Source of the DNA: Alistipes sp. | GTDB taxonomy: Bacteria > Bacteroidota > Bacteroidia > Bacteroidales > Rikenellaceae | Assembly: GCA_017465605.1 (NCBI GenBank) | Contig: JAFTVW010000005.1 | Span: 137,074 to 183,839, forward strand | DNA: 46,766 bases | Direction of reading: 5' to 3' | Notes under the pieces: model-generated | The model's input: the letters and a program-made list of their open reading frames with translations, nothing else | The model's database searches: none | Told to the model about the DNA's origin: nothing | Shown here: positions 29,198-33,447 of the stretch, piece by piece | Layout of the letters: every line of letters begins with the position of its first letter | Position numbering within the stretch: the first letter of the stretch is position 1 | Program-made: the position numbers and the translations under genes

Positions 29198-29235
29198 AAC
29201 TATCGAAATAGTTGCATAACTACAACAATAGTTAT
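29198..29235. promoter_or_regulatory. Two AACTA-N6-TAGTT dyads over the blaI-like promoter
   Basis: Dyad 1 is AACTAT (29198-29203) with ATAGTT (29208-29213). Dyad 2 is ATAACTA (29216-29222) with TAGTTAT (29229-29235). Both reduce to AACTA-N6-TAGTT, with starts 20 bp apart (two helical turns). They cover the -33 and abut the -7 of the promoter, an arrangement expected for an autorepressor. Confidence 0.75.
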
Positions 29236-29242
29236 ATATTTG
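29212..29242 (+). promoter_or_regulatory. Promoter of the blaI-blaR1-like operon
   Basis: TTG (29212-29214) and TATATTTG (29235-29242) are separated by 20 bp, fitting the Bacteroidetes -33/-7 promoter. The ATG is 69 bp downstream. Confidence 0.75.
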
Positions 29243-29820: not shown

Positions 29821-32800
29821 ATGTCAGTTACCTTATATATTTTGGAGTTCGTGTTGTGCAGTGCAGTTTTTGTGGCATTGTATAAACTATTTATCGAGGG
29901 TCGTGTATCGTATCGCTATTCTCGTATCTATTTGGTGTGGTCGATGGTGTTCTCGGCGGTAGTGCCGATGTTGGAGCTACCACTCTACCCTGCCCAGACA
30001 ATTTATTACGAGTTGCCGGTAATCACCTACACTCAACCCGTAGAGTTCCCGCAATCGGCCGATATCGTCACTCCATCAGAGCCAACGGTCGAGCCGGTGC
30101 AGCAACCCATTGATTGGGGTATGGTTGCAGGCGTTGTCGCAGCCTCGATTTACGGATTGATAGTGATGCTCAATTTGGCTCGATTTGCGTGGCGATTGTG
30201 GCTTATTAGAAAGTTGCGTCGTCGTTGTGAACTCACAATATATGAGGCATATACGCTTGCTTTGAGCGACCATATTTCCGAACCGTTTTCCTTTTGGCGA
30301 ACCGTTTATATGAATCGCCATATGCAGGGTCGCGAGCGGCAGCATATCTTAACTCACGAACTTAGCCACGTCAGCCATCACCACACAGCCGAGCGACTCA
30401 CATTGGAGTTGATGCGTTGCGTGTTCTGGTTCAATCCGTTTGTGTGGATTGCTGGATCGTTGTTGGTGCAGGTGCAGGAGTGGCAGGCCGATAAAGATGT
30501 GATTGATGCAGGTTACGATGTTTACGAATATAGAAATTTCATTTTTCGCCAGCTCTATGGTGTAGGTCCCGAAGTGGATTTAACCAGCGGGTTACATAGT
30601 AAATTAACTAAAAAACGATTTCTTATGATGACGGATTTCAAAAAGGGACGATTCCAACTTTTGCGTATGGTTGCATCAGTTCCCGTTATGGCGGCAATGA
30701 TATTGGCTTTTGGTGCAGTTAAAGCCGAGGATAAGATTGTTTATAATTCACCGTCTCAAATTTCCGAGCCTATTGCCGAGGGGTATGAGACAAGCGGATT
30801 TGTGCAAGCTGAAAACAGTGAGTTTGAGCAAGACACAGTGAAGGCCAAGTATCCGCCCACAGTAAAATATACGGCTGGTATTATTGTTCCCGAAGATGAG
30901 AAACAGATTATTCTCAATAAGGGTACATATGAAGTTATGGGTATTGCTTATACTTCGGCAGAGTATAACAAAACGCCTGTTGATGTAGTGATTTTTGTGC
31001 TCAACGACAGCAAAATGGCAATTAAGAATAAGAGCGATTGGAAGTTCGTCGAGTCGGGTACATACTCTTATGTGCTTACAAACAAACGTCTTACAATAGC
31101 CAGAGACAACAAGCAATTTACATTCGATACAAAATATGTCGGCCCTACATTCAAATCTTCTTTGAAAATATTTACTCCCGATGATTCAAAGATTCGCAGT
31201 TTGGATTTTGTTGGCCCGATGGAGAGTCGAGACTCCTCAGTAATGATTGGCTTCAAAGATGGTAAGGTGTATTTGAATGGTAAAGAGACTACTGTCAAAG
31301 AACTTGAAGATGTACATCATCTTGATTTTGAAGCACCTGTTAATGACCCACAAAATCAAAAGAGAAATCTCTACGATATCCTCAGTGAAGGTATGGAAAA
31401 GACTATCCCTCAGCCTGCTGTTGAGGAGTCGGAGGTGGCATCGGTTAAGCTTAATGCCAATGCTACGAAGGCTGCCGAACTTATGGCCAAGCAGCGTCGC
31501 CCAATTATCAATATTAAGCACACCAGCATAACTGATGCTCATCTATATTTGGAGGGTATCGAGATTACCCTACCCGAATTCCAAAAAATTATGGCAAGTG
31601 GTGATATGTCTCAGAAGACCTTTGTTTTGGGTTACCCAGTGGTATCTGTGCATACCGATATTGGCCAACGGGTACAGGAGATTGTTGCTCAGAGCGGTGC
31701 CAAGTTCGAATTGAGTCGCAATATAGCCGTTGTTGATGGAAAACGAGCAAAGATGCCTGCATCTCTAAAAATGTTTGATTCAAAAGTTCATACAGTCTTA
31801 AACGATGAGGTGAAGCAAATCTTAAAATCGACAGGAATCTCAGAGCGTGAATTCCTCGAAGGCTATCTCATTGAATTTAAGTCAAAGAGTGAGTTAAGCA
31901 TTGTGGTCTGTAAGCAATCAATCTTGTATAACAATAGAGGCTCATACAATATAAATACCCTAAGGAGAGAGTTATCATCGTTGAAAGCTATGGGATTGAA
32001 TCAACCTATATCTCTCTATGTTCAGAATGGAACTTCCGAGGAGAGCGTATCGCAAGTAAAGGAGCTTTTAAGCTCACTTGATTTGCTCGGCTCTACCACT
32101 ATTAAGCAGACTTCTACCTATGGCTTAAAACATATGCCGGCAATCTTTATAGATGGTAAACTCTCGACCGAGAAAGAGCTTGCCGAGTTATCTCCGAACG
32201 ATGTAGGCACGTTTTATATTATTACCGAAGTTGATCATTACATAAAGAAGGTTTTGGCCAACGCATCATATTCCGAGGCTGATTTTGCCAAGACTAAGAT
32301 GCTTTATGTCGAGCGAAAGACCCAAGTGATGATTAAAGATGGCAAATTCTATCTCAATGGTAATGAAATTTCGTTGGAGGAGTATGTAAAGCTCGATAAG
32401 GGCTCGTATTCCAATGCTAAGACAGCTAATATGAACAAAGTGTACTTCCTTAGCCAATATTTTGTGGAGTCACCACGAAAGATGGTTCACAGAATTGGTC
32501 AAGGTGGCGATCCTGCCAAATGTAGAAATCTTGCCCGAAGTAAACTCTCGGAGTATTCCATTATTCAACAAACGTTAGGTTACAATGTTGAGGTGTTTGA
32601 GGCGGTTAAAAATGCGTTGATGAAGAATCACCGAGTTAAGTATATTATGATCGTCGATCACGAATGTAAGGGCGAGATTATATGCAAGGATATCGACGGT
32701 GAGACAGTGGTATTTAATTCGTGGGATAGAAAATATAGTATGCGTAAACCCGAATATTCAGTGATTAAGGCTGAGGTGTTGGCTGATGACAAATTGATTG

Positions 32801-33447
32801 TCGATGGCTATCAGATGAATCTTGCAGAATTCCGTCGTTATATTTCAGAGTATGGTAGGTTTACAACAAAAATTAGACTTATAACTGAGCCTGCCAAGAG
32901 TATGTCCAAGGAGCAGGTGATGGCGGTTGCCGAGCGACTTCGCGATGAGCTGATAATGGGCAATGTGGTCAGGGATGTCAAGTTTGTGACACGAAAAGGT
33001 GCTGATGCTGAGTCGGATCCTATCGACTTAGAGGAGTGTGCAGAGAAAAATGTTATTCCTACTGGTTATTATGCTTCCTATGGTTATATCCCCAAGGATA
33101 AACCCAAAACAGAAGAGCTTAGTGAACCGGAAAAGCTTTTTACGCCTGAGCGTAGGCGAATTTCACAGATGATACCATTTATTAATATTGTTGATGATAA
33201 TACACTCTATGTGTTAAATCGCACAGGAGGCAATATTATTAAATCGGGTAAATATCGTTACTCCTATGCTAATGGCATACTAACCCTGAAAGGTGAGCAA
33301 GAGTATAGTTTCCCATACTATTTGAGTTATGGGGATATGGATAATTCTTTGTTGATTAACCTTCAAATTGATAAGGTGATTAATGATGTTGAGGTGGAAT
33401 TTATTTCTGTGATTGTGAGTAGCTCTAATAAGTACTACAACAGATAA
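29821..33447 (+). CDS. BlaR1/MecR1-like M56 membrane metalloprotease sensor with very large C-terminal region
   Basis: A 1208-residue sensor, about twice the size of classical BlaR1. Membrane segments lie at about 3-22, 36-54, 101-120 and 283-300. The M56 zinc site HELSH (His179, Glu180, His183) and a downstream Glu220 in QEWQADKD are intact. About 900 residues follow the last membrane helix. They contain five related motifs of the form (h)Y/V-x-(N/E/D)G followed by a Glu-rich helix: GKVYLNGKETTVKELE (481), AHLYLEGIEITLPEFQ (573), AIFIDGKLSTEKELAE (774), GKFYLNGNEISLEEY (841) and KLIVDGYQMNLAEF (991). A strand-rich segment near 388-436 resembles one near 1127-1166. There is no penicillin-binding transpeptidase domain with SxxK/KTG. 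Confidence 0.9.
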   Translation: MSVTLYILEFVLCSAVFVALYKLFIEGRVSYRYSRIYLVWSMVFSAVVPMLELPLYPAQTIYYELPVITYTQPVEFPQSADIVTPSEPTVEPVQQPIDWGMVAGVVAASIYGLIVMLNLARFAWRLWLIRKLRRRCELTIYEAYTLALSDHISEPFSFWRTVYMNRHMQGRERQHILTHELSHVSHHHTAERLTLELMRCVFWFNPFVWIAGSLLVQVQEWQADKDVIDAGYDVYEYRNFIFRQLYGVGPEVDLTSGLHSKLTKKRFLMMTDFKKGRFQLLRMVASVPVMAAMILAFGAVKAEDKIVYNSPSQISEPIAEGYETSGFVQAENSEFEQDTVKAKYPPTVKYTAGIIVPEDEKQIILNKGTYEVMGIAYTSAEYNKTPVDVVIFVLNDSKMAIKNKSDWKFVESGTYSYVLTNKRLTIARDNKQFTFDTKYVGPTFKSSLKIFTPDDSKIRSLDFVGPMESRDSSVMIGFKDGKVYLNGKETTVKELEDVHHLDFEAPVNDPQNQKRNLYDILSEGMEKTIPQPAVEESEVASVKLNANATKAAELMAKQRRPIINIKHTSITDAHLYLEGIEITLPEFQKIMASGDMSQKTFVLGYPVVSVHTDIGQRVQEIVAQSGAKFELSRNIAVVDGKRAKMPASLKMFDSKVHTVLNDEVKQILKSTGISEREFLEGYLIEFKSKSELSIVVCKQSILYNNRGSYNINTLRRELSSLKAMGLNQPISLYVQNGTSEESVSQVKELLSSLDLLGSTTIKQTSTYGLKHMPAIFIDGKLSTEKELAELSPNDVGTFYIITEVDHYIKKVLANASYSEADFAKTKMLYVERKTQVMIKDGKFYLNGNEISLEEYVKLDKGSYSNAKTANMNKVYFLSQYFVESPRKMVHRIGQGGDPAKCRNLARSKLSEYSIIQQTLGYNVEVFEAVKNALMKNHRVKYIMIVDHECKGEIICKDIDGETVVFNSWDRKYSMRKPEYSVIKAEVLADDKLIVDGYQMNLAEFRRYISEYGRFTTKIRLITEPAKSMSKEQVMAVAERLRDELIMGNVVRDVKFVTRKGADAESDPIDLEECAEKNVIPTGYYASYGYIPKDKPKTEELSEPEKLFTPERRRISQMIPFINIVDDNTLYVLNRTGGNIIKSGKYRYSYANGILTLKGEQEYSFPYYLSYGDMDNSLLINLQIDKVINDVEVEFISVIVSSSNKYYNR

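Follow-up and report, generated by a model that had tools for sequence, protein, structure and literature searches.

A BlaI/M56 gene pair with an oversized protease

The stretch of DNA analysed here (46,766 nucleotides of Alistipes sp.; GenBank assembly GCA_017465605.1, contig JAFTVW010000005.1, positions 137,074 to 183,839 of the forward strand; hereafter the window) encodes a membrane protease of peptidase family M56 whose tail carries ExbD/TolR-type domains, although the protein itself is not an ExbD (Table 1). An earlier note, made from the sequence alone, had described this gene as a BlaR1-like sensor with no target gene beside it, and we obtained the same frame, length and strand. The gene order is phosphoglucomutase, repressor, M56, O-methyltransferase (downstream and convergent), M16 and UvrA, and no target or resistance gene adjoins the M56 gene, also as the note had said. 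The 134-aa protein encoded upstream has the Penicillinase_R winged helix of the BlaI/MecI/CopY repressors. The note was right to see a BlaI/M56 gene pair whose very long tail is repetitive and not a transpeptidase.

The head of the protease scored 50 bits against Pfam PF05569 (cut-off 31), and H179, E180, H183, E220 and D224 were unchanged across 54 aligned proteins, its own included, in agreement with the intact M56 core reported before. Hydropathy gave four candidate membrane segments, one of them marginal at 1.61. Since the last hydrophobic 19-residue windows begin at 278-284, the tail comprises about 900 residues, the length previously given for the segment after the last membrane helix, and hydropathy found no hydrophobic segment past residue ~303. 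The NCBIfam model blaR1_generic reached 32.7 bits (cut-off 400) in a match confined to residues 164-287, and no transpeptidase, penicillin-binding or beta-lactamase family matched in Pfam at E up to 1. The pair thus resembles BlaR1/MecR1 with BlaI/MecI (MEROPS M56) in placing an HExxH membrane protease beside a BlaI-type repressor, and in having a C-terminal sensor that probably lies outside the cytoplasm (the BlaR1 mechanism is reviewed in PMC7593790); it differs in carrying an ExbD-type array, with no penicillin-binding sensor and no adjacent gene for a beta-lactamase or penicillin-binding protein. By its domain content the protein is an M56 member, BlaR1-like in layout, and not a beta-lactam sensor.

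Table 1. Features of the M56 locus, with positions in the window and residues of the M56 protein
Feature	Position	Strand	Evidence
Operator half 1, ACTA-N6-TAGT	29199..29212	.	exact match; same site upstream in relatives
Operator half 2, ACTA-N6-TAGT, 20 bp after half 1	29219..29232	.	exact match; also in relatives
TATATTTG, fits -7 element, two bases after operator half 2	29235..29242	+	sequence
BlaI/MecI-type repressor, 134 aa	29311..29715	+	Pfam Penicillinase_R, 112 bits (cut-off 22.6)
M56 gene, 1208 residues, one open frame	29821..33447	+	open reading frame analysis
M56 protease head and membrane segments, residues 1-306	29821..30738	+	PF05569, hydropathy, region matched by most relatives
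HExxH zinc motif, residues 179-183	30355..30369	+	H179, E180, H183 invariant in 54 aligned proteins
Head/tail boundary, identity to L001 falls from ~100% to ~45%	30739..30740	.	DNA comparison with L001
N-terminal strand-rich domain, residues 389-436, weakly related to C-terminal one	30985..31128	+	profile, model
ExbD-like motif copy u1, residues 476-497, with the remainder of the domain not seen	31246..31311	+	profile, model, self-comparison
ExbD-like unit u2, residues 562-631, order bbb-a-b-a-b	31504..31713	+	profile, model, self-comparison
ExbD/TolR-fold unit u3, residues 685-765	31873..32115	+	structure comparison
Motif copy u4, residues 774-792, ExbD-like or TonB-plug-like	32140..32196	+	profile, plug-profile test, self-comparison
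Motif copy u5, residues 835-858, with the remainder of the domain at low confidence	32323..32394	+	profile, model, self-comparison
ExbD-like unit u6, residues 978-1056, order bbb-a-b-a-b	32752..32988	+	sub-threshold Pfam ExbD, profile, model
C-terminal strand-rich domain, residues 1078-1200, possibly lipocalin-like	33052..33420	+	

Repeated ExbD-type motifs and predicted folds in the tail

No Pfam family exceeds its own cut-off in the tail. We built an ExbD-like profile from the tails of relatives (numbered L001 and so on; seeds hand-picked, neither the window's protein nor L001 contributing a row) and ran it on the tail aligned with that of L001, the sole other near-full-length tail found. 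Genuine ExbD proteins of related genomes match this profile at 95.5-95.6% probability. The five best matches in the tail (residues 476-497, 570-592, 774-789, 835-856 and 985-1010) all fall on identical profile columns, and at none of ranks 1-5 did any of 200 column shuffles score as high as the real alignment, which sustains the earlier count of five motif copies; the reversed tail gave no match on those columns at a score of 12 or more. Single matches are weak (P 0.003 to 0.16 each), and the strength of this profile evidence lies in the set of five. A profile-free self-comparison, the check that the earlier note had proposed, gave a divided answer. Among the 15 pairs of six pieces (u1-u6), with 40 shuffles each, u1-u2, u1-u4, u1-u5, u2-u5 and u5-u6 beat all 40; the u4-u5 match was the pieces' own overlap only, and nine pairs were not above shuffles (u1-u3, u1-u6, u2-u3, u2-u4, u2-u6, u3-u4, u3-u5, u3-u6 and u4-u6).

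A structure model of the tail points the same way. In it, residues 685-765 have an ExbD/TolR fold, the periplasmic type, with TolR as the best structural match, and the ExbD order of strands and helices is predicted three times. The structure comparison aligned 999 chains, much of the list being filled by two stretches, so that absence from it is no evidence; a sequence search of solved structures returned nothing useful (one match at E 0.38). The last unit, u6, also has a Pfam ExbD match at 977-1041 (E 8.5e-4, 19.8 bits, cut-off 25.4), and separate tail pieces gave chance-level Pfam names plus ExbD at E 0.013 for that unit. Both ExbD-like stretches that had been noticed earlier are thereby recovered, one by structure comparison and the other by its strand/helix order and sub-threshold Pfam match. 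They had been listed apart from the motifs; motifs and stretches are both present, but for the most part they amount to a single finding, since an ExbD-type domain begins with the motif as its first half. The likening of the motifs to TonB plugs holds for one copy at most, and is borderline there: a plug profile had its top match at the expected place, residues 775-798, with a score that 10 of 200 shuffles reached, and the other copies are ExbD-type. We therefore dropped separate plug-like repeats as a general reading. The strand-rich ends do appear duplicated, since a profile of relatives' C-terminal domains (own protein and L001 excluded) found residues 1078-1199 at E 9e-12 and, weakly, residues 391-435 at E 0.025 (E 0.0011 in L001).

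The tail thus shares with the periplasmic domains of ExbD and TolR, from the Ton and Tol motors, the fold of 685-765 and elsewhere the motif and strand/helix order; unlike them, it carries several tandem units on a protease without a membrane anchor of their own. The hallmarks of ExbD, a single N-terminal membrane helix with a proton-carrying Asp and an ExbB/TolQ neighbour, were not found here, the immediate neighbours being of other families, and genuine exbD genes lie elsewhere in this genome.

Mosaic divergence and variety of the tail

We compared the locus with that of L001, the closest relative. DNA identity is 95-100% per 100 bases over the head (one stretch 79%) to about 30739 (codon 306-307). 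Immediately beyond, it is down to 25-60% in 20-base steps, and within the O-methyltransferase gene it is back at 87-96%. Synonymous (pS) and non-synonymous (pN) differences are 0.14 and 0.024 for codons 1-306, and 0.71 and 0.291 for codons 307-1208 (pN/pS about 0.41). The pS of the neighbours is 0.21 (BlaI), 0.28 (O-methyltransferase), 0.47 (phosphoglucomutase), 0.66 (M16) and 0.72 (UvrA), and their pN is 0.006-0.059 throughout, so that the non-synonymous difference of the tail is ~5x that of M16 or UvrA. Judged from DNA identity, the head/tail boundary looks like a recombination edge. We do not claim a tail swap as the sole reading of the drop, because the tail's pS equals that of M16 and UvrA; the head, repressor and O-methyltransferase (0.14-0.28) may therefore be the exchanged part. 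Between L002 and L004, one ExbD-class domain at codons 475-636 differs at pS 0.64 between flanking stretches at 0.04 and 0.03 (codons 1-300, 0.24), and by this contrast is a domain-sized replacement.

The head is widespread, with matches in 80 of 150 related genomes. The tail matches in 6 of 180 genus genomes and is full length in 2, this one and G170, evidently the genome of L001. At the equivalent locus the M56 protein has 525, 539, 579, 702, 1203 or 1208 residues (L001, L003, L005, L006 and L007 have all neighbours; for others the DNA covered one side), so the conservation of length that the earlier note had suggested checking does not hold. Among 54 proteins scanned, TonB_C occurs in 23, CarbopepD_reg_2 in 17, ExbD in 11 and Plug in 7; this set was gathered by searches with the window's protein and does not represent the M56 family evenly. 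The Pfam ExbD cut-off is reached by L002, L003, L129 and, just barely, L005 and L006 among ten scanned, and also by L014; L115 has a match below it. Our profiles are more sensitive: the ExbD-like one matches 11 of 106 M56 proteins (10 being its own members), and nine of the 11 are also picked up by a profile made from two genuine ExbD proteins of a ~200-residue class, which adjoins a ~150-residue ExbD in related genomes. A tree of 23 heads places the window's protein and L001 as the sister group of L002 and L004 (support 95/88), whose tails are built differently. In one clade of weak support (83/46), 17 heads carry at least nine different tail layouts, by our own labels. Bacteroidota M56 proteins with TonB_C, Plug or CarbopepD_reg tails are comparable in joining an M56 head to parts of TonB-dependent transport; the window's protein differs in having ExbD-type units and possibly lipocalin-like ends, with no TonB_C match.

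In one rival reading, the protein is an ordinary M56 regulator with a tail shaped by drift and duplication and of little specific function. The scarcity of the full tail in the genus would fit, as would the 508 of 909 residues modelled at a predicted confidence (pLDDT) under 50, but a 900-residue frame that stays open in both species at pS 0.71, with pN far lower, the threefold strand/helix order, and intact ExbD and TonB_C domains in relatives make this quite unlikely. Alternatively, the tail could be a guard with integrated decoys that mimic the Ton/Tol parts hijacked by phages and bacteriocins, its fast mosaic change recording an arms race. A tail pN of 0.291 against 0.020-0.059 in phosphoglucomutase, O-methyltransferase, M16 and UvrA of the same genome pair, the sharp edges at codon 307 (L001) and around codons 475-636 (L002/L004), and the many layouts speak for this. 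We give it a small probability, however, since the fast change also fits relaxed constraint (pN/pS is below 1), no killing effector is linked, the neighbours being housekeeping genes, and the M56 protein matched no PADLOC-DB family up to E 0.1; for the repressor there were two weak matches (E 3e-4 and 8e-3). A guard receptor in which bacteriocins, phages or failing motors engaging the real ExbD, TolR or TonB would trip a BlaR1-type protease, with recombining Ton/Tol stator domains as bait, seems to us improbable.

A second, distant M56 protein of the same genome (L118:4982-8491; G000 contig C53) has 1169 residues, four TonB_C stretches and a CarbopepD_reg domain; its gene adjoins a BlaI-type gene and lacks an ACTA-N6-TAGT site. 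Five M56 proteins of Salinivirgaceae (L018, L019, L020, L021 and L054) are likewise very long, at 1090-1270 residues.

Operator, output and a possible Ton-linked signal

The -7 candidate that follows the two operator halves, TATATTTG, resembles TAnnTTTG, which we take to be the Bacteroidota -7 consensus. ACTA-N6-TAGT stands upstream of 74 of 117 open reading frames (three duplicates and some non-M56 frames included), and its spacing is specific: 149 matches at 6, and 0 to 10 each at 2-5 and 7-9. The tandem occurs once in this genome at 0 mismatches, and in three other places only with three mismatches; of nine further single sites, eight lie within frames and one ahead of a DoxX gene. Across the genus, 24 of 121 genomes hold one exact tandem pair each (reversed-pattern control, none); in 20 of them the pair lies 34-141 bp ahead of where the alignment to a BlaI homologue begins. 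Of the other four, one is at a contig end, one precedes a Peptidase_M28 gene, and two lie ~1.1 kb before a BlaI homologue; in the matching loci (L006 and L007) the operator is separated from the repressor by an aspartyl-protease-like gene, which by that position is probably co-regulated. We rejected the Peptidase_M28 gene (L203:1501-3034) as a second target, its two closest orthologues (73-77% identical) having no site within one mismatch in the loci covered. CopY/BlaI operators are given as TACAnnTGTA (PMC7253601). They are alike in being palindromic and in two copies at the repressor promoter, and some relatives' sites, ACTACATTTGTAGT, hold TACA-TT-TGTA; the conserved part here is instead the outer ACTA/TAGT, and the window's two sites lack a full TACAnnTGTA. 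The BlaR1/BlaI and MecR1/MecI pairs autoregulate. In this genome the exact tandem is found at no promoter but that of the M56 pair, which makes more of the M56 protein itself the probable main output, and self-regulation with occasional extra genes is the simplest reading of these sites.

Another rival reading is a cell-wall sensor, whose TolR/ExbD-type units would contact peptidoglycan and signal damage to the wall, much as BlaR1 does in an indirect way by sensing beta-lactams. TolR is the best fold match and its C-terminal domain binds peptidoglycan; the BlaR1 ancestry fits as well, and one relative (L128:2009-4060) carries Peptidase_M23 (E 4.3e-33) ahead of an ExbD-like pair in its tail. 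The TonB_C, Plug and CarbopepD domains of sister tails nonetheless point to transport and not to the wall, and Pfam and NCBIfam found no penicillin-binding domain, so that we regard a wall sensor as unlikely.

Starting from the computational observations (protease and repressor families, repeated ExbD-type motif, fold of one unit in the predicted model, operator pair and mosaic tail evolution), we favour a BlaR1-type switch whose periplasmic sensor, an ExbD/TolR-type array between related, possibly lipocalin-like domains, reports the state of the Ton system, a proposal that we hold at about even. Its anatomy seems to us highly probable; the Ton-state mechanism is tentative. That mechanism joins two precedents: in BlaR1 an outside signal activates the protease and the repressor is then degraded (PMC7593790), and in E. 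coli strand recruitment is how a dimer of ExbD takes hold of a TonB strand (PMC10907165). By analogy, the ExbD-type units would bind an ExbD/TolR partner (TonB/TolA-like strands, ExbD itself or peptidoglycan); altered binding, mirroring the working state of the Ton motor, would be relayed through the last membrane helix; and the M56 site would be switched on, with BlaI cut or released and the operon derepressed. The extra M56 protein may also act directly, competing for or holding Ton/Tol parts.

Several points weigh against this proposal. The protein falls short of the Pfam ExbD cut-off, profiles of genuine ExbD proteins miss it at E below 1, and profile-profile comparison with them is weak (best P 0.018); only the profile made from the tails of relatives and the structure model reach it. 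The closest relative, L001, has no Pfam ExbD at E up to 0.05, nor have L113, L117 and L118; L007, L015 and L128 have none at E up to 0.001, though custom profiles match them. Units u1, u4 and u5 are motif only, and u3, the best fold match, is missed by the profile and has no significant similarity to other pieces. The tail model, built on two near-full-length sequences, is poor overall (mean pLDDT 48, predicted template-modelling score 0.30). Moreover, 43 of the 117 frames lack an exact upstream site (some are not M56 genes, or are second genes of a run), and degenerate operators could exist elsewhere, as the single site before DoxX illustrates.

BlaR1 is the model for proteolytic drug sensing; a head of the same type, joined at a single place in the chromosome to varying sets of Ton/Tol-like parts, suggests that in Bacteroidota the switch serves to monitor or adjust the machinery that feeds them. 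The label of an undescribed system, proposed earlier, is too strong, since the M56-BlaI logic was already known; the tail and its evolution are new. Among the titles and abstract beginnings listed by word searches, none described an M56 (BlaR1-like) fusion to TonB or ExbD parts, which does not establish absence from print. Neither M56 nor BlaR is mentioned in the main text of PMC12204202, which deals with how Ton and Tol evolved; the M56 label in PMC12915585 belongs to a hit resembling a penicillin-binding protein, and the M56 matches listed for PMC12578637, PMC12596196 and PMC12502800 are catalogue numbers. With the operator and domains defined, the stimulus of a large M56 group becomes directly testable. 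One outside hint comes from Porphyromonas gingivalis, where a BlaI-family gene with an M56 neighbour goes down under excess hemin, by a log2 change of -1.74 (PMC10470040), a correlation in another genus for a possibly related pair.

Some further genes lie near operator sites. The single site before the DoxX gene (L164:1501-1514, ~30 bp upstream) may be chance or a further target, and no DoxX gene was found near any of the nearest relative's 12 sites. The aspartyl-protease-like genes (L006:5639-6604 and L007:5612-6580) belong to PF13650, and in the L006 copy the C-terminal part has a weak match to the PADLOC model PDC-M08B (E 3e-5). In L005 (5418-6383) and L003 (4697-5605), a DUF6624 gene separates phosphoglucomutase from the repressor, ahead of the operator.
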